Below, one piece after another: positions 1,404 to 15,079 of a stretch of 43,936 bases of DNA (positions within the stretch are counted from its first letter, which is position 1; each line of letters starts with the position of its first letter). The notes under the pieces were generated by a model. The model worked only from the letters and a program-made list of their open reading frames with translations, was not told the origin of the DNA and did not search any database. The position numbers and the translations under genes were made by a program. Origin of the DNA: Spirogloea muscicola (taxonomy: Eukaryota; Streptophyta; Zygnematophyceae; Spirogloeales; Spirogloeaceae); NCBI GenBank assembly GCA_009602725.1, contig WELB01000004.1, positions 707,852 to 751,787 on the forward strand, read 5' to 3'.

Positions 1404-2121
1404 AGAGAAGCGGCGACAGGGAGTCGGACTAGTAGACCTGTTGAAGGCTCGCACTACTTCCGAGCCAGAGTTGGAGGCGGTGAAGCCCATGCAGTGATTG
1501 TGTGTCGCCTCGGCCCTTCATGGAGTCCCTACAAGCTGCGCAGCCCTGCCGTGTCTTGCCCTCGAAGTTTTTGTCGGAGTTGCTGGCTGGCATTAAATTT
1601 GGATCAAACTTGCTGATGCATTGAGGACGTTGCTTGGGGCAATCATCAACCGCCGAGATCCGAACACTGCAGTGTTCATCACTAAGCACCAGCAGGGCAA
1701 CTTACACTACGCTGGACGAATAATAGACGCTGTGGCAACGCAATCATGCACTAGATGCACACTGTGATTCAGTCGCACAAGGCCAGCTGCAACTTGACCT
1801 CGCAGAGAAGATGTCGTTGAGCTGCTCCGGCAGCATGGCTGCCGCTCACACTGGCCTCAAACTCGTGCAGCTGCTGCACAGCTGCCGCAGTGCTCAGAAT
1901 AAAGGGGAGCCAGAACTGGCTCCCCTTTATTCTGAGCACTGCGGCAGCTGTGCAGCAGCTGGGTTGAGAAACAGGCCAGAGCCCTGAGATGCCGCCGTCG
2001 CCACCTTTGCATGTCCTGAGCTATGATGCAGCGGAGTCCACATTGTCACCAGGACTTGCTGGCTGCCGAGGTGGTCACTCAGGGTGATCTCCGGGCCGTG
2101 GCTGCAGATCCCACGTTCGGC
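1404..2121. other. Intergenic region between two plus-strand genes
   Basis: This stretch holds the 3' end of the cysteine-repeat gene and the leader of the NodGS-like gene. The only striking structure is the palindrome at 1868-1961. No exon with family similarity was seen. An upstream ATG at 2023 is in frame with the NodGS start and could extend that protein by 33 residues. Confidence 0.4.
1868..1961. repeat. Perfect 46-bp inverted repeat with a 2-nt centre
   Basis: Arms 1868-1913 and 1916-1961 are exact reverse complements, separated by AA. Each arm carries an AATAAA on one strand (1898-1903 on plus, 1926-1931 on minus). Outside the perfect arms, a 7-nt block at 1851-1857 (CTGGCCT) pairs again with 1973-1979 (AGGCCAG), one base off the symmetry axis. 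Transcribed, it would form a very stable hairpin. It may be a 3'-end structure, a small foldback element or an assembly artefact. Confidence 0.9.
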
Positions 2122-5100
2122 ATGGCGCACTCCCAAGGTGCTGCCGTTGAGGCGGAGCCTAGAGGCGCTGCCGCCATTGCCGCGGCGGTGCGGGCCTGTG
2201 CGGCAGTGGACCAGCACTGCCACAACCTGGCCGGCGACGGCGGCGCCGGGCCTGCCGGCGGGGTGCCGTACCTGCGCCTCTTCTCCGAGGCCGACGGCTC
2301 TGCGCTGGGCGACGCAGTGCACACGCTGAGCTTCAAGGTGCGCCGCAGAAGGAGCTGCGCAATGTGATGAGTCTCAGGGCTACACTGGACGCTGTCGACG
2401 TCCTGACACCTTGAAGACAGCGTGGTCATGGGCACCCAACTTGGCACTCGACGCGCCGGCAGCGGAGCGTGCGGGACCTGGCGGCGGTCTACGGCGTGGC
2501 GCCGTCCCTGGAGGCCCTGGAGGCGCGTCGCCGGGAGCTCGGCCCGGAGGGCTCGGCGGCGCTGCTCCTGAAGGAGGCCCACCTCGCCGCGATCCTCGTC
2601 GACGACGGCCTGGCCCTCGGCCCGGACCCCGTGGCGGCGCTCCCGCTGGCGTGGCACCGGCAGTTCGTGCCCGTCGTGAAGCGCGTCCTCCGCCTGGAGG
2701 CCGTCGCTGAGCACGTCGTGCAGGAGGTGCGGAGACGAGACCAGGCTCCTTGAGGCAAACCCACATTGGCGATCCTCACAAGCAGCGCTGAACAAGACCT
2801 CGGTCATTGCTTGCGGTTGCAATCTCAGCACTGTGCCAAGGAGTGTGCGTTCTGTTACAATTAGAAATACTTTATTGTGACGACTCAAGTGTGGCTACTG
2901 TGCTGCCTGACCAGATGAAGGACGGGTGGAAGGTAAGCACACAGAGGAGATGCGCCGAGGTGAAGGGTGGGGCAGCTTGCTTGTATCTGCTCGCAGCTGC
3001 GCGCGCTCGTGACGTCGAGGCGAGCGGCGGCAAGGGGAGGCCCTGAGCTTGGACGAGCAACGGGCTGCCAGCGCAGGCCAAGCAGCAGCAGCCGGGCTCG
3101 CCAGACGTGCTGGACGACTTTGAAGCTCGCTTTCTGCAGGCCCTTGACCAATATCCAGCACTTACATGGGGAGAATGCCATCTCATGCCTTTCCGTGCCT
3201 TTCCCAGTAGCAACATGTCAGCCAGATGCTGCCAGTACCTTGCGATAGTTGTGCATGATGCTCTGAGCCTTAGCAGACACAGAGTTGCAGAGGTACTTGA
3301 AGGCAAAGCTCTCCAGCCGACGTCCTTGACTGCTCGCTCCCACAGCGGGGGACGATGTGGTGGCCTTCAAGAGCATTGCAGCGTACCGCAGTGGACTGGA
3401 CATCAATTCAGACATTGACGCAGCCAGCTCTGCTGCAAAGCGTGCCCTGGACGACGAAATACGAAAAGGCATGAGCTGCAAAAGCACAGAAAGCGGCTGC
3501 ATCTGCAATCAAGGCGTTGCTTAGCACATGGCACCCTGCTGAGCTATCAGCAAGAACCAAGACAAATGGGTGGAGCAGCCTAGCTTGACAATGCTGCGAT
3601 GCAGGTCCTGGCCGGATCACCAACAAGGATCTCATTGACTATATCTTCTTGACGGGACTGAGAGTTGCGACGATGCGCAGCATCCCACTCCAGATTCATA
3701 CAGGGTATCATTGTGAACCCATACGCATAGCATTGATCCTCAGTCCTCACGAGCTGTCTTTCCTACTGCCTTCTTGTTTGTTGAATGATTGCCTTGTGCT
3801 AATTGTAACTAATGGCCGACTGGATGGCTATTGAGCACATTGGCACAAGAAAGTATCTGCTGAAGCTGCAGACCTTCGCAAGTCTGGCAAGTTGAGAGGC
3901 TCTTAAGGAGAATACGCATGCAGGTTTGGGGACAAGGATCTGGATTTGAGACTGGCGAATCCCCTCCACCTCCGGGCAGTGCTGGAGCACCCAAGCTTCG
4001 AGACCAGCCGCATTGTATTGCTCCACGCTTCCTATCCCTTTGCCAGGGAGGCCGGCTACCTTGCCAGCGTCTACAGCCAGGTAATGTGATGGCAGACTGT
4101 GTGCCTTGTCTCAAAACCTGCAAACTCAATCTCATCCTGATCCATTCTGATCCAGCTGAGACTATGATGTGCTTAATGTGCTTCAGGTTTATGTTGACTT
4201 CGGGCTGGCTGTACCAAAGCTCTCCGTCGCTGGCATGCAGCAGACCTTGAAGGAGCTACTAAGTCTTGCTCCTATTAACAAGGTTTGCTGCGACCTCCAA
4301 TTACGTTCGGGGCTGCAGCACTGGGCTTCACAGCACTGGGCTTCTGTGGTTTCTTGACGTTCAGTTTAACCTCTACTCTGGAAAAAGAGAGAAGGCCCGT
4401 GGTGCACATGCGATGAAAGGGAGGCCAAATCAAAGCGATACACAGTTCAGGCAAAGCTATTGCATACACTGGGGATAAACAAAGCGAAGCTCTTGCTAAG
4501 GGGGGCTAAGGTAACAGTGCGAAAGCCGGCAGAAGTGGACATCAGTACTGACGACTGAGCATATGCGGATTCAGCAAGTAGATGAGTTTGTTTCTTTATC
4601 CTACATTGAAGCTAACAGGCACATAGATTACTTCCTGTCTCACCACAAGTCGCAGTGGTGCTTCTCTTTGGGGTGCAGGTCATGTACAGTGGAGATGGGT
4701 ATGCATATGCTGAGACTTATTATCTGGGTAAGCCAAGGATTGGCCACTGAGCTACTACTTCAGTCCACCTCTGAACAGAAGGATGACTAGGGTCACCCTC
4801 TTGTAAAAGCGTTAGTCAACATCGTCAGTGAGGGGCAGAGATGTACATTGCTTGCATCACGCGACCAGAATATGGGCTGCTCTGTGGGTGCACAGCGGCA
4901 AAGTGCGGGCGTGGAGCTCTGGAGTCCACGCTGTGTGGCGCCATGGACAACGGCGATCTTACTACTACAGAAGCGGTGGAGGCTGCGCATGACATCCTGA
5001 GGAGAAATGCCGAGAGGCTGTACATGCTCGAGCTGCCGGCAGCCACTGCGCCTCCACCCTCAGTGACTTTCTCGAAGAGCTCTACAAGTGACACTGTACT

Positions 5101-7585
5101 TGGGGGGCAAAACAGGACCAGCACGAGGCTCGTCAGACTCCTCTATGTCGATAGTGCAGGGATCCGTCGAGTCAGGGTAAGCTGTCTTGCAGGCCTGTCA
5201 TGTGATATGCTGCCATCAAGTGTTTATCACATGATCGTCTCAAGAGTGCAGTTGCTTTTGTGCATCGCTGGCTTCTGATACGAGTGCTATTGGTGCAGGG
5301 CGTGCCCATTGAGCGCTTTGAGAGGGTGGTTTGTCAGCATGGCATAGGCATCACACAGGGCTGCATGGCGACGAGCTCACACAGCGATGCTCCTGCCAAA
5401 AACAGTGGCCTGACCGCGGTTGGGGAGGTTCACCTGGTGCCTGTCCATGCAGCGAGGCGGCAGCTTCCCTGGTACTGCTCCCAGATTAACCCCTTGGCCC
5501 CTATCAGTCCTCCAACGTCAGCCTTTTGTTAGTGTACTTTGACATTTTCCAACACAAGGTTCCAGCATCTCAAGGTTCAAACACAATGCAATTCTGAAGA
5601 CCCTAGACTCCTGAAGTCTCAGTCAGTCTATGCAGGCAGCAGGAAGAGGACATGGTGATGGTCGAGATGCACACAGGGCCGGGCACAGCGTGGGACCTCT
5701 GCCCGCGAAGCACACTGCGGAGACTGCTGGCGACGCTTACTAAGGAGTTTGGTCTATCCTTGAGGGCAGGCTTTGAGGTCGAGTTCTCGCTTCTCAAGCC
5801 CAAACCCTCTCCAGGGTGAGTACCTACAGCAGACGCACATGTGGATGTCCATTTGCTTGCTTGACTTCTCCTGCAGAGTTTGACCACGATTTTTTTCGTC
5901 ATACTGCAGCATGGGGGCTGAGGGACAAGAATTTGTTCCTGTGGACTGCCTCCCATACTGCTCCTCCGCTGCATTCGATGCACTTGCGCCGCTCCTTGCA
6001 AAGATGTCAACCACGATTGGCAAAATGGGAGTGAGAATAGAGCAGGTAGTGCTTGGCAGCTTTTGCTCGGCCTCTGTCCAGCAAGAGAGTATTATTGTCG
6101 TGAATTATCTTGTCTACAAAGTGTGAGTTTGTGATAACAATCAGTCTGTGGGACAGGTACACTCAGAATCAGGCCACGGTCAATTTGAGTTTGCGCTTGG
6201 CCATGAGGAGGCCCTGCAGGCTGCAGACAACCTGCTCTACGCCAAAGAAGCGATCACCACCGTCAGCCGCGCAAGTGGCTATCATTCCACTTTCCTGCCA
6301 AAGTGAGCTCACTGTCAGCAGCTTACTGGAGCAGACTGCACAGTAGCACAGCTTGGGAGCTAGGCGTCTATGCTCAGAGGCATGCTCAGAAAGACCATAA
6401 TGGTAGACCCCTGCATCCTCTGTGAGGGTTGGCAGGAGCTCTGAGGACGGAGCAGCGAGTGGGTGCCACGTGCATCTCAGCTTGTGGACAGCGGGCGGCC
6501 AGAATGCCTTCTGCGAAGAGAATGACGGAAAGGGGGTGTCGCGCACCGGCGAGAGCTTCATGGCTGGGGTGCTTGCGCACCTTCCGGCCCTGCTCCCCTT
6601 CACAGCGCCGCACCCAAACAGGTGGAAGCTGGACACTACTTGATCATTACATCCAAGTTTCTGCACACAAGATAATGTCCTGTCAAAAGCCTACATTGTT
6701 GTCGTACTGCTTTCAAGGACTTAGATTGTCGCAAGTAATTCCACACATAATTATGTTCATACTGACATCATGTCCATGTGCAGCTACCTGCGACTGCAGC
6801 CAAATATGTGGGCCGGTGCGTATCAGTGCTGGGGCTTTGAGAACAGGGAGGCGCCATTGCGAGTTGCCAAGCCTCCCGGGCATGCCACAGCCACAAACTT
6901 CGAGCTCAAGGCATTCGATGGCTGTGCAAACCCCTACCTCGGCCTTGCTGCTGTCCTCGGAGCAGGCTTAGATGGCCTGCGAAGGGGCTTGCAGTTGCCT
7001 GAAGCCACTCGTAAGTTGCTGTAGTTGCAATTTGCAGCACCCTTTGCATAGCCTTAGTATCCTCCTCTTCTTCAATCACTATAGTGCAATGTTGTATGCA
7101 CTAATTGCTGGAAATTGCAAGAGCAGAGAGAAGTGAATGTGTGCTGCCTGTGCTTCGATGCAGTGCTCAACCCAGCAGAGTCCCCTTCCGACGAGGTGAA
7201 AAGGCTTCCCGCGACGCTCCAAGAGGCCATCAATGAGCTCAGGCTGGATGCAGTCTTGAGTGAAGCTCTTGGTCCAAAGCTTGTGCAGTGCGTCTTGGCT
7301 GTCCGCGAGGTAAGGTTGATACCAGCAAAGCTGCAGACCAGTGAAGTTGATTATGTTTCCCTGTGCAATCTGCCATCTGTTGATGGACTACAGTGCTCTT
7401 TAATTGATATTTGAAAGCAACAAAAAACCTCAGCCATTATGGTGGTTAGATGCATGTAGTCTTCCTTAGACAGCGCTGTAGTTGAAACACAACTTCACTC
7501 TGCACTCATTGTTGTCTTGCAGGCCGAAGTGCGTCATTTTACTGTGAGTGATGTCATCAGCCAAGAACTCTTGCAGATCTACTGA
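2122..7585 (+). CDS. Amidohydrolase-glutamine synthetase fusion (NodGS/FluG-like)
   Basis: Seventeen exons join in frame to 872 residues: 2122-2337, 2463-2726, 3077-3150, 3344-3468, 3605-3704, 3924-4080, 4187-4282, 4679-4727, 4896-5176, 5299-5471, 5636-5815, 5910-6045, 6157-6302, 6436-6621, 6784-7010, 7164-7309 and 7523-7585. The N-terminal half is an amidohydrolase-2 type domain, with metal-site motifs [22 protein letters not shown] and YSGDGY. The C-terminal half is a glutamine synthetase domain with the motifs [29 protein letters not shown] and NPYLGLAA. The family (plant nodulin/FluG-like, Arabidopsis NodGS) has the same two-domain order and a similar length. GS chemistry is glutamate plus ammonia plus ATP to glutamine, but plant NodGS proteins are reported to have lost or changed this activity, so the substrate is open. 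The ATG at 2122 is preferred; 2023 is possible. Confidence 0.93.
3151..3343 (+). other. U12-type AT-AC intron in the NodGS-like gene
   Basis: The intron starts ATATCCAGCA directly after CTTGACCA and ends CTCCCAC before AGCGGGG. A U12-like branch site TCCTTGAC lies at 3323-3330, with its branch A 14 nt before the intron end. Removing it joins FLQALDQ to [10 protein letters not shown] with no gap against the plant family as I recall it. The length, 193 nt, is not a multiple of three, so retention would break the frame. There is no GT donor at this position. Confidence 0.8.
3469..3604 (+). other. GC-AG intron in the NodGS-like gene
   Basis: The exon ends CGAAAAG and the intron begins GCATGA, ending ATGCAG at 3604. 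The join gives [17 protein letters not shown] in frame, as the family expects. No GT donor nearby gives the right phase. GC-AG introns are a known minor class of U2 introns. Confidence 0.7.
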
Positions 7586-8027
7586 ATGAGTTGCGGTAAC
7601 GATACCACCAACTATGTGCTGTTGTCAGACAGTAGCAGACTGTGTGGTAATTCCTTCTTTCCCAACATAGTACAGAGGGCAGCATGTTCTGAGAATCACA
7701 CAACATGCACACAACCGCTGGCACATCAAGTTTGTCCAAAACATCAACTGCCTGTTTGTCGTTCCTGCACTCAAGCAATAATCTATCCTGAAGTCTTCAT
7801 GAGCCCGCTTGCAAGAGTAAGATCTTATGTTGTCCTCCAGAATAATTTCATGTGGGGCTTGCAAGAGACGCATGCCCTGTTTTCTATGTACTCCAAGATC
7901 TGTTTGTGTTCACGTGGTAAAAAAGACACTGGCCTACTACTTCACAAGGCAGCACCATACTTAACAGCACAGTGCTGTGGTCAGCGTGGAAGGATCACCA
8001 AGAAGAAGAATAAAGTGCAAAGTGCAG

Positions 8028-11900: not shown

Positions 11901-12617
11901 TCAAAGCTGGAGTGGTCATCGCATGGGCGAGGCTAGGATCTGCACCTCCTGCTGGGCAGCGCCGCCGTCGCTGCTGCCAGCATGGTTGCCCATCTCCGAT
12001 GCCGGCATGCTCCAGAGTCGGATGCTGGCTCATCAACCGCCACCGTGCAGAGCACGCCATCAGCACCACAGCTATCTCGGCGCCGTGGCACTCGCGGTGA
12101 TGTGCAAGCGAGGGTGCAGAGGCACGACTGCGGAGCACCCACGTGCAGTCGTCTCCGCAGGAGAGGGCATGCAGGCCGTCGGGTGCGATGGCGACGCCGC
12201 GGACGGCGCCGCGGTGGCCGCGGAGGCTGGCAGCGGTCCTCCTGCGAGCACAGCGGCCGAGCCAGAGAAGCGCAACGCCGTCGGCACCACTGTCAGCCGG
12301 AGGCTCGAGGCCACAGGCGCCATCACTGGACCTCCGCAGATGGGGTTGAGTTTTAGGCCATGGAGCTCACCTGTTGGCAAGGTCCCACAGCCGCACGTCT
12401 GCGGCACACAGCCAGCGCCACGACAGCGGCAGGCAGGCAGTCAGCAGGGGCAGCCGGCGGCGGCGCGGCCATGGCCGCAAAGGAGGGGCTTGGGTGCGGC
12501 CGCACCTCCGTCCATGGCGCCGGACAGGAGGGTGGCGAGCGCCGCAGGGCTGCGGGCGAGGCACGCCACGCCATCGCGGTGGCCCTCGAGCGCGCCCACA
12601 AACGGCTTCGCAAACAC
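8960..12617 (-). CDS. DCAF13: DCAF13/SOF1 WD40 protein, N-terminus in assembly gap
   Basis: SOF1/DCAF13 is a WD40 protein of the small-subunit processome, needed for 18S rRNA maturation in the nucleolus. Exons read on minus include 12617-12506 (VFAKPFVGALEGHRDG), 12398-12371 (VRLWDLAN), 12241-12143, about 11575-11487 (VTAGAQVDVWDQNR), about 11290-11195, about 10989-10924 (DRSIALYDMRMGTPLRK), about 10722-10665 (AVAWNPREPFNF), about 10415-10322 (CVHEDHVSAV), about 10137-10070 (MDVDFSPTGREFVTGSYDRT), about 9960-9890 (SREVYHTKRMQR), about 9757-9650 (GSDDTNIRLWKAKAS), 9437-9349 and 9123-8960. The last two carry the diagnostic Sof1 domain (HRHLPKPIYK and PGSVPH), ending KKRIVAELE and TGA. About 55-60 N-terminal residues expected for the family are absent because they fall in the gap. 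The exon or exons between 12140 and 11580 are not resolved. Confidence 0.92.
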
Positions 12618-12683
12618 CTGGGCGCCGTCGGCAGCGGCGCCGGCGCCGGCTGAGCCCTCGGTCTGGCTGCGGTGTCGGCGGCC

Positions 12684-12706
12684 GCGGCGGCGGCGGCGGC
12701 GGCGGC
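12684..12706 (+). repeat. CGG trinucleotide run at the gap edge
   Basis: Seven or more CGG units end directly at the run of N. On minus this reads as CCG repeats upstream of the DCAF13 exon. Such runs often stop assembly, so the gap may be caused by this repeat. Confidence 0.85.
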
Positions 12707-12707
12707 A

Positions 12708-13587
12708 NNNNNNNNNNNNNNNNNNNNNNNNNNNNNNNNNNNNNNNNNNNNNNNNNNNNNNNNNNNNNNNNNNNNNNNNNNNNNNNNNNNNNNNNNNNNN
12801 NNNNNNNNNNNNNNNNNNNNNNNNNNNNNNNNNNNNNNNNNNNNNNNNNNNNNNNNNNNNNNNNNNNNNNNNNNNNNNNNNNNNNNNNNNNNNNNNNNNN
12901 NNNNNNNNNNNNNNNNNNNNNNNNNNNNNNNNNNNNNNNNNNNNNNNNNNNNNNNNNNNNNNNNNNNNNNNNNNNNNNNNNNNNNNNNNNNNNNNNNNNN
13001 NNNNNNNNNNNNNNNNNNNNNNNNNNNNNNNNNNNNNNNNNNNNNNNNNNNNNNNNNNNNNNNNNNNNNNNNNNNNNNNNNNNNNNNNNNNNNNNNNNNN
13101 NNNNNNNNNNNNNNNNNNNNNNNNNNNNNNNNNNNNNNNNNNNNNNNNNNNNNNNNNNNNNNNNNNNNNNNNNNNNNNNNNNNNNNNNNNNNNNNNNNNN
13201 NNNNNNNNNNNNNNNNNNNNNNNNNNNNNNNNNNNNNNNNNNNNNNNNNNNNNNNNNNNNNNNNNNNNNNNNNNNNNNNNNNNNNNNNNNNNNNNNNNNN
13301 NNNNNNNNNNNNNNNNNNNNNNNNNNNNNNNNNNNNNNNNNNNNNNNNNNNNNNNNNNNNNNNNNNNNNNNNNNNNNNNNNNNNNNNNNNNNNNNNNNNN
13401 NNNNNNNNNNNNNNNNNNNNNNNNNNNNNNNNNNNNNNNNNNNNNNNNNNNNNNNNNNNNNNNNNNNNNNNNNNNNNNNNNNNNNNNNNNNNNNNNNNNN
13501 NNNNNNNNNNNNNNNNNNNNNNNNNNNNNNNNNNNNNNNNNNNNNNNNNNNNNNNNNNNNNNNNNNNNNNNNNNNNNNNNNNNNNNN
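12708..13587. other. Assembly gap of 880 N
   Basis: Unknown bases. The gap is bordered by a CGG run on the left and a 64-base A run on the right. It separates the head-to-head genes DCAF13 (minus) and bS18 (plus), so it must hide the start codon of DCAF13, probably the start of bS18, and the promoter between them. Confidence 0.99.

Positions 13588-13651
<64 letters not shown>
13588..13651 (+). repeat. A64 homopolymer beside the gap
   Basis: Sixty-four consecutive A's follow the N run and lead directly into GC-rich sequence. This may be a real homopolymer, an inserted poly(A) tail of a retroposed element lying in the gap, or an assembly artefact. Confidence 0.95.
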
Positions 13652-13654
<3 letters not shown>

Positions 13655-13843
13655 GGGCTGAACGCGGGCAGTTTCGGCACAGAGCGGGCGGCGAGGGCCA
13701 GGAGCGCGGACCGCCTGCCGGGCAGAGCCGCCGCAGCCGCCGCCGGAGAACCTGGGGCCGCCGGCGACCGCAGGCCGCAGCCGGCGCTGGGCGAGAGCCA
13801 GCGCCGGGAGTTCCTGCGCCTGCTCCGCGAGGCCGAGGGCCGC

Positions 13844-15079
13844 ATGGCCGCCGACGACGAGCTGGAGGGCCGCCGGCCCGCGGGAAGCTCCGCCGGCGGC
13901 CATGGCCAGCTGCGGGAGCTCGACAAGGACGAGGACGTGGGGGACGACGGCGGCGGCGGCATTGGCCTTCTGGGCTGGGACCCAGATCGGCGCCACGGCG
14001 CCAGGGCCGTCTCGCTGGTCGAGGACGGGGACGAGGAGGACAAGGCGCAGCCGGCGACGTTCGGCGGTGGCGCGATGACTGACGCGGCGCTGGCGGCCAT
14101 GGAAGTGGTTGACCTCGACGACCCCGCCGCGAAGCCGTTCCAGTACCGCCCCGAGCGCCTCTTCTTCCCCGGCCAGTCCTACGACCTCGAGGTGCGCCAC
14201 GGCAGCCGCTGGTGGAGCTCCGCGCCGGCTCCATCTCTGCTGCCACTCTTGGCTGATGCTCGCCGCCCACCTTGCCCACCCTCGCAGGACCTGGACCTCA
14301 CCAAGCCGCCGGCGGCGAAGCCTATGGTGGTGAAGAAGCAGCGTGCCGTTCACACCACGCGCACCGTCCTGGACCAAGCTGACTTCCGGGTACTGGATCG
14401 CCCCTGCCGCTGCCGCTGCCGCCTAGTCGTCTTGGCATCAGTTGTGGGCTTGCCTGCGGCAGGCTGGGCAGTCCTACTTTGGCAGCACTCCGCAGGAGCC
14501 TCTGCACACACCTTGTCGCTGGCCGAGCGCGCTGTCAAAGCGGTCTTCGGAAAGTGCTCAGCTCAAGCACTGCGGCTGCAGAGCCGCGAGTCAGCAAGCC
14601 GTCAAGCCTCAGGCACGCACGGGCTGAGGCATGTGTGAACATACACAGACGTTCACACCTATGCCTCTTGACGGGCATTCTTGTTGGTGCAGAATGTGCG
14701 GTTCCTGGCGAACTACCTCACGGACACAGGGAACCTTGTCCCGCGCCGACAGGTGAACGCTCAGCTTCAGCGATCGGGCAGCTTGTGCAATGTGCCTGCC
14801 TGCAGGCTGATCCGGAGTAGCTTGTTGATTGCAGTCAATGCCAACTTGTCTCTTCAACATACTATCAAATGCTTCAATCTGGTGTCCGAGCACCTGATGC
14901 CAAATGTATTGCCGCTGCTGGCGCAGACAAGGGTAAGTGCCAAGGCCCAGCGGAAGATGGTGCGGGAGGTGAAGACGGCACGCGCACTCGGGCTGCTGCC
15001 CTTTACCAGCATTGGGCGGCCGCCGTTCCGCGCCCACCGCTTCCGACAGGGCCGCCCCTCTGACCTCGATGGGTCTTGA
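13844..15079 (+). CDS. Organellar ribosomal protein bS18
   Basis: bS18 belongs to the small subunit of bacterial-type ribosomes. Four exons are seen: up to 14191, 14288-14389, 14693-14752 and 14927-15079 (TGA). The core reads FLANYLTDTGNLVPRRQ, then SAKAQRKM and REVKTARALGLLPF, which matches bS18. The segment before it, LFFPGQSYDLE, resembles plant mitochondrial S18-like proteins, so mitochondrial location is favoured over plastid; this is inference. The first ATG in frame after the gap is 13844, but the frame is open back to the A run, so the true start and targeting peptide may lie in the gap. The N-terminal extension is long, acidic and Gly-rich (around 13920-14060), far larger than a bacterial S18. 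It is divergent with DCAF13, perhaps sharing a promoter. Confidence 0.88.

Follow-up and report, generated by a model that had tools for sequence, protein, structure and literature searches.

The interval 3151-3343 of the window (the whole stretch of DNA analysed, 43,936 nucleotides in length) reads, with a probability of roughly nine in ten, as an AT-AC intron of the U12 type that interrupts a NodGS-like gene in a streptophyte green alga (most probably Spirogloea muscicola), and it would almost certainly be removed from RNA by the minor spliceosome. Direct reading of its boundaries gave ATATCCAGCA...GTCCTTGACTGCTCGCTCCCAC/AG, and the ATATCC start, the CAC end and the branch-like motif 14 nt before that end, all of which had been described in the initial annotation, were borne out. 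The same applied to the restoration of the reading frame, as the intron has an AC 3' end at 3343/3344 and the spliced product continues in frame as ...CA + AGCGGGG.... Splicing would involve the pairing of U11 to the 5' splice site through UCC and of U12 to the branch site UCCUUGAC, with the reaction performed by the U4atac/U6atac.U5 complex and CENATAC, leaving the exons joined in frame (...CA to AGCGGGG...).

The sequence at 3323-3330, TCCTTGAC, conforms to the branch-site consensus TCCTTRAC, and its branch A lies 14 nt before the last intron base both here and in a duplicate of the gene on contig C7. This is a short distance, slightly beyond the optimum of 11-13 nt given for branch to 3' splice site (PMC3584512). 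Relative to the 5' splice-site consensus /ATATCCTT, the window has ATATCC at 3151 followed by AG rather than TT at +7/+8, whilst the duplicate has ATATCCTA; the match of the window copy thus stops at +6, and its 5' site is weak because +7 to +9 are AGC and not TTT. The arrangement ATATCC...TCCTTRAC(N5-13)AC was encountered in none of 20,000 first-order random sequences modelled on 3077-3468, and it occurred once in the whole window, against means of 0.04 (forward strand) and 0.015 (reverse strand) in 200 random windows each.

The interrupted gene is one that we take to be a member of the NodGS/FluG-like family. The glutamine-synthetase catalytic domain (PF00120) was detected in two exons, at 6407-6626 and 6725-7024 (60.6 and 86.3 bits), and the amidohydrolase domain (PF04909) in the spliced N-terminal peptide (48.8 bits). 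The peptide had no match in NCBIfam, and a search for bacterial relatives of the amidohydrolase part confirmed none. Coordinates of the features are collected in Table 1.

Table 1. Positions of the features discussed; plain numbers refer to the window and C numbers to other contigs of the genome.
Feature	Position	Strand	Basis and remarks
Predicted AT-AC minor (U12-type) intron	3151-3343	+	193 nt, phase 2; read directly, with frame, duplicate-gene comparison and chance test
5' splice site ATATCC, full site ATATCCAGC	3151-3156	+	ATATCC also in C7 copy (ATATCCTAT)
Putative U12-type branch site TCCTTGAC, branch A at 3329	3323-3330	+	Same letters in C7 copy
3' splice site CAC	3341-3343	+	Terminal CAC also in C7 copy (GCAC)
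Presumed NodGS/FluG-like gene encoding an amidohydrolase domain joined to a glutamine-synthetase catalytic domain	2121-7585	+	Limits approximate, by eye; Pfam domains
Upstream coding exon	3077-3150	+	66/71 columns identical to C7 over 3080-3150; 3077 is the start of the analysis, not the exon 5' end
Downstream coding exon	3344-3468	+	112/124 columns identical to C7 over 3344-3467; PDB 2QPX match from DDVVAFKS on
In-frame GT-AG alternative (rejected)	3195-3345	+	14 extra residues, A to P change; C7 comparison
U6atac gene	C40:67983-68101	-	Rfam
U6atac gene	C294:115190-115309	-	Rfam
U6atac gene	C69:305419-305538	-	Rfam

A protein search of the genome returned 12 matches to the NodGS-like gene, all of them on C4 or C7, and revealed a single second copy, on C7. 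The window belongs to C4, where the intron occupies 711002-711194. Window positions 2000-7700 and the corresponding C7 stretch were 87% identical, with the flanking exons at 90-93% and the intron at 74% (150 of 203 columns, 11 of the columns being gaps). Within this diverged intron three pieces were kept: ATATCC at its start, the run GTCCTTGACTGCTCGCT, and CAC at its end. The intron measures 193 nt in the window and 202 nt in the C7 copy; both lengths are 1 mod 3, therefore retention breaks the frame, and the C7 copy read unspliced runs into stops within the intron in the frame of the exons. That there is no intron at all, one gene copy being in decay or misassembled and the stretch meaningless, is a reading to which the 153 Mb analysed, out of a reported genome size of 174 Mb if the species assignment holds, might lend something; it is nevertheless barely credible given that frame and sequence of the exons on either side are preserved in both copies, that the differences between window and C7 are concentrated within the proposed intron, and that each of the two introns is 1 mod 3 in length.

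The C7 copy also bears on an ordinary U2-type GT-AG intron at 3195-3345, which would leave 14 extra residues in the protein. The window copy does offer a GT at 3195 and a CAG ending at 3345 in frame, with an open stretch between them, yet the GT is aligned with TT in C7, the window and C7 copies have their in-frame GT donors at different places with none in common, and in C7 the stretch is interrupted by a stop in the frame of the exon. The part of this stretch that would be exonic was identical to C7 in 34 of 48 columns, a level that is intron-like and not exon-like. When compared with PDB 2QPX, a TIM-barrel hydrolase that we take to be a bacterial protein, the AT-AC product reached 95.5 bits, its alignment having a one-residue gap close to the join, and the GT-AG product was poorer at 87.0 bits, both queries skipping a short unresolved exon farther upstream. 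The GT-AG intron is hence highly unlikely and was rejected on the TT at its donor in C7 and the lack of any in-frame GT donor common to the two copies.

Genes for the minor spliceosome were sought in 153.1 Mb of genome sequence in 471 contigs, with the snRNA families represented by the Rfam models RF00548 (U11), RF00007 (U12) and RF00619 (U6atac). There were three copies of U12 (81.1, 80.1 and 80.1 bits; Rfam cut-off 53), three of U6atac (85.5, 85.5 and 83.2 bits; cut-off 33) and four of U11 (59.6, 57.2, 52.4 and 45.8 bits; cut-off 39), so that all ten genes resembled their families at scores above the cut-off. The branch-pairing sequence GUAAGGAAAA was kept in all three U12 genes, and AAAGGG in three of the four U11 genes, the copy on C439 having AGAGGG. 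Minor snRNAs were thus present in the same genome for U11, U12 and U6atac but not for U4atac, which was not found by the Rfam search (48 of 1771 candidates scored); two patterns derived from the complement of the host U6atac gave one match each, as did each of their reversed controls. We infer that a U4atac gene does exist in the host genome. A gene for CENATAC (PF14968) was detected on both C7 and C4 (99.2 and 97.9 bits), the human protein being needed chiefly for AT-AN minor introns (PMC8280824).

These genes bear on whether the intron 3151-3343, though AT-AC, could be spliced by the major spliceosome. Major-class AT-AC introns are known (PMC8280824), and a 5' site that is weak past +6 would suit one, but an exact TCCTTGAC branch site stands at a U12-type distance and is kept in C7, and the genome encodes minor snRNAs and CENATAC, all of which makes this reading extremely unlikely. 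Assignment to the U12-type AT-AC class, already made in the initial annotation, is well supported by the ends and branch site kept in the duplicate, by the want of a common in-frame GT donor, and by the occurrence of three of the four minor snRNA families together with CENATAC in the genome.

Nine of the ten snRNA genes were preceded by a TCCCA element (-66 to -75) and by a TATA-like element (-30 to -33), the latter scored with a motif list picked by eye. The TCCCA element was located at -74/-75 in U12 and in three U11 genes, whereas the U6atac genes had it at -66/-67. In plants, the spacing of upstream elements sets apart the snRNA genes of Pol II from those of Pol III, and the arrangement seen here looks like that rule, with a different spacing. 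The fourth U11 copy (C439:1913-2051) is without the TCCCA and TATA-like elements and has an altered 5' end, AUAGAGGG; judged by these letters, it is probably a dead copy. The first 60 nt were the same in all three U12 genes, and likewise in all three U6atac genes, with 300-nt flanks that were 24-81% identical.

Further AT-AC introns were found in a gene for an NHX5/6-type Na+/H+ exchanger, which is present in three copies (C155, C90 and C58) with two such introns each. The first, ATATCCTCTT...TTTCCTTGAC...CAC, is 370, 347 and 350 nt long, and the second, ATATCCTTTC...GTCCTTGAC...CAC, is 149, 147 and 138 nt long; frame is kept by both in all three copies, and the distances from branch to intron end are 16 and 11 nt, respectively. 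The peptide across the first join aligned to Na+/H+ exchanger 9 without a gap in the three alignments listed, and the second join reads ...CAL/LFKYAGLSVYK in all three copies. ATATCC, TCCTTGAC and a terminal AC were therefore common to eight of eight intron copies at three positions (two NodGS-like and six NHX), with G as the R of TCCTTRAC in every one. Plant and animal Na+/H+ antiporters have two U12 intron positions in common (PMC2426677), and the host NHX5/6-type gene is alike in also having two U12-type introns, a likeness of gene and intron class.

A genome-wide search with the pattern TATCCTT...TCCTTRAC (spacing 81-141) gave 35 matches as against 12 in the reversed control. Thirty of the 35 were inspected, three of which were the copies of NHX intron 2 and served as a positive control. 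R was G and not A in 29 of these 30 matches, some being copies of one another. Two groups of loci, L029/L033/L048 (callose-synthase-like, named by eye) and L040/L044, were judged to be chance matches because their 'branch' falls in sequence that is conserved between copies in the manner of an exon, and L055 was set aside as what looks like a chance match within a U2 intron. Another match, L038 (C44:575662-575798), reads ATATCCTTTC...GCTCCTTGAC...GCAC and is by its signals a plausible AT-AC minor intron; its peptide was without a Pfam match and it was left out of the intron count. The pattern does not yield a number of minor introns, nor do the matches inspected explain its excess over the control.

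The lineage of the host was inferred from the photosystem proteins of plastid contig C392, taken here as the host's own. Among the best 60 of 170 matches to PDB, PsaB scored 1623-1627 bits with 8htu, 9lut, 6l35 and 7ksq, 1583-1594 bits with 7wfd, 5l8r and 5zji, 1529-1558 bits with the older entries 4xk8, 4y28, 2wsc, 2o01 and 3lw5, 1524 bits with 6zzx, and 1519 bits with both 6ijj and 6igz. Of these we take 8htu, 6l35 and 7ksq to be the moss Physcomitrium, 7wfd, 5l8r, 5zji and the five older entries to be flowering plants, and 6zzx, 6ijj and 6igz to be Chlorella, Chlamydomonas and Bryopsis, respectively. PsaA also placed moss first (1633-1649.5 bits), followed by Chlamydomonas (1605.1), flowering plants (1538-1603), Chlorella (1572.5) and Bryopsis (1554), hence flowering plants were not separated from Chlamydomonas by this protein, whereas PsaB separated them clearly. 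Both proteins were nearest to those of land plants, as befits a member of the Streptophyta, and the host looks like a streptophyte mainly on the evidence of PsaB, because PsaA puts Chlamydomonas level with flowering plants. The initial annotation had left a choice between a chlorophyte that retained the minor spliceosome and a streptophyte; the latter is better supported, and a chlorophyte was rejected, again mainly on PsaB (1519-1524 bits for chlorophytes versus 1623-1627 for moss).

Spirogloea muscicola is, as we understand it, a zygnematophyte with a triplicated genome. The U12, U6atac and NHX5/6-type loci occur in threes, and genes in two or three copies fit a triplication of the whole genome. 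For this species, a gene stretch in 'all three copies' is also mentioned (PMC11096116). As a separate observation, the NodGS-like and CENATAC pairs are both located on C4 and C7, with other genes in two or three copies distributed over C155/C90/C58 and C42/C8/C39.

No U12 introns of Chlamydomonas turned up in a survey from 2010, which has green algae among its listed losses (PMC2846911). On the streptophyte side, a 2023 survey counted 110 minor introns in Klebsormidium nitens and 166 in Chara braunii (PMC10639083); these are, like the host, streptophyte green algae with minor introns, and they differ from it in that the host is most likely a zygnematophyte. Spirogloea, Mesotaenium and Zygnema are not mentioned in the main text of that survey, though its supplement may list them, and no report of zygnematophyte minor introns was present among the literature matches listed, a coverage to which most subscription papers do not belong. 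Since minor introns have been published for streptophyte algae before (PMC10639083), the intron described here is no longer surprising, and it lies in a lineage where such introns are expected. The unexpected feature is the altered U6atac box, and not the intron itself.

The Rfam consensus of U6atac starts with GUGUUGUaUGAAAGGAGAGAAGGUUAGCA, and all three host genes start with GUGUUCGUUGAGCCGAGAGAAGGUUAGCA, with differences at positions 6-8 and 12-14 (two of the three genes were aligned to the consensus). At positions 12-15, the 5' splice-site box, all three have GCCG in place of the canonical AAGG (RF00619), even though they score far above the Rfam cut-off, and the box region is AGCCGAGAG instead of AAAGGAGAG in each, the same among copies whose flanks have diverged. 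The U6atac core GAGAGAAGGTTAGCA occurs at only three places in the 153.1 Mb searched, hence the searched genome contains no canonical U6atac copy, as these places are the three altered genes. No comparators for the altered box were found in viral and prokaryote collections, and the difference from the canonical sequence is one noted for this host.

Work on human U6atac has positions 11-16 pairing with intron positions +9 to +4. In this standard register the host U6atac would pair completely only with AUAUCGGCU, a 5' site present in none of the eight supported intron copies. Out of six possible pairs, the host U6atac forms two with the NodGS-like site of the window, three with that of C7, four with NHX intron 1 and four (one a wobble) with NHX intron 2, and it is mismatched at +6 and +7 with every supported site; the consensus U6atac would form three, five, five and six, respectively. 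The window copy loses a single pair because its 5' site is weak with either U6atac. A shifted register would allow runs of up to five pairs at the NHX sites and of three to four at the NodGS sites. Host U11, with AAAGGG in three of its four genes, pairs over +4 to +9 as a consensus U11 would, which for the window NodGS copy amounts to UCC only.

We tentatively propose, at somewhat under even odds, that the U6atac genes retain a single one of the four AAGG-box bases whilst the introns keep AUAUCC and U11 keeps AAAGGG, and that activation of the core then rests on U5, on proteins such as CENATAC or on RNA modification, with weak or shifted-register pairing of U6atac. The alteration may mean that weak pairing is tolerated, that another register or a modification is used, or that many other introns have fitting sites. 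Were the proposal true, U11 would recognise the minor 5' site normally and then hand over to a U6atac that in the standard register offers no more than two adjacent Watson-Crick pairs, A16-U4 and G15-C5 at +4/+5, supplemented in some introns by pairs at +8/+9, or that pairs in a shifted register, which would contradict the requirement for U6atac pairing reported for human cells. The host genome would in that case uncouple the 5' splice-site sequence from the U6atac box that recognises it, although the two are regarded as linked, and if this is confirmed the alga would offer a natural experiment on how far minor splicing depends on U6atac pairing.

Two minor observations concern the window itself, in which no snRNA was found. 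A run of 880 N, either a gap or sequence that was withheld, occupies 12708-13587, within a stretch of odd composition values (12001-14000). The intron that follows in the NodGS-like gene, at 3469-3604, is of the GC-AG type (AAAAG/GCATGAGC ... GATGCAG/GT), and GC is also present in the C7 copy.
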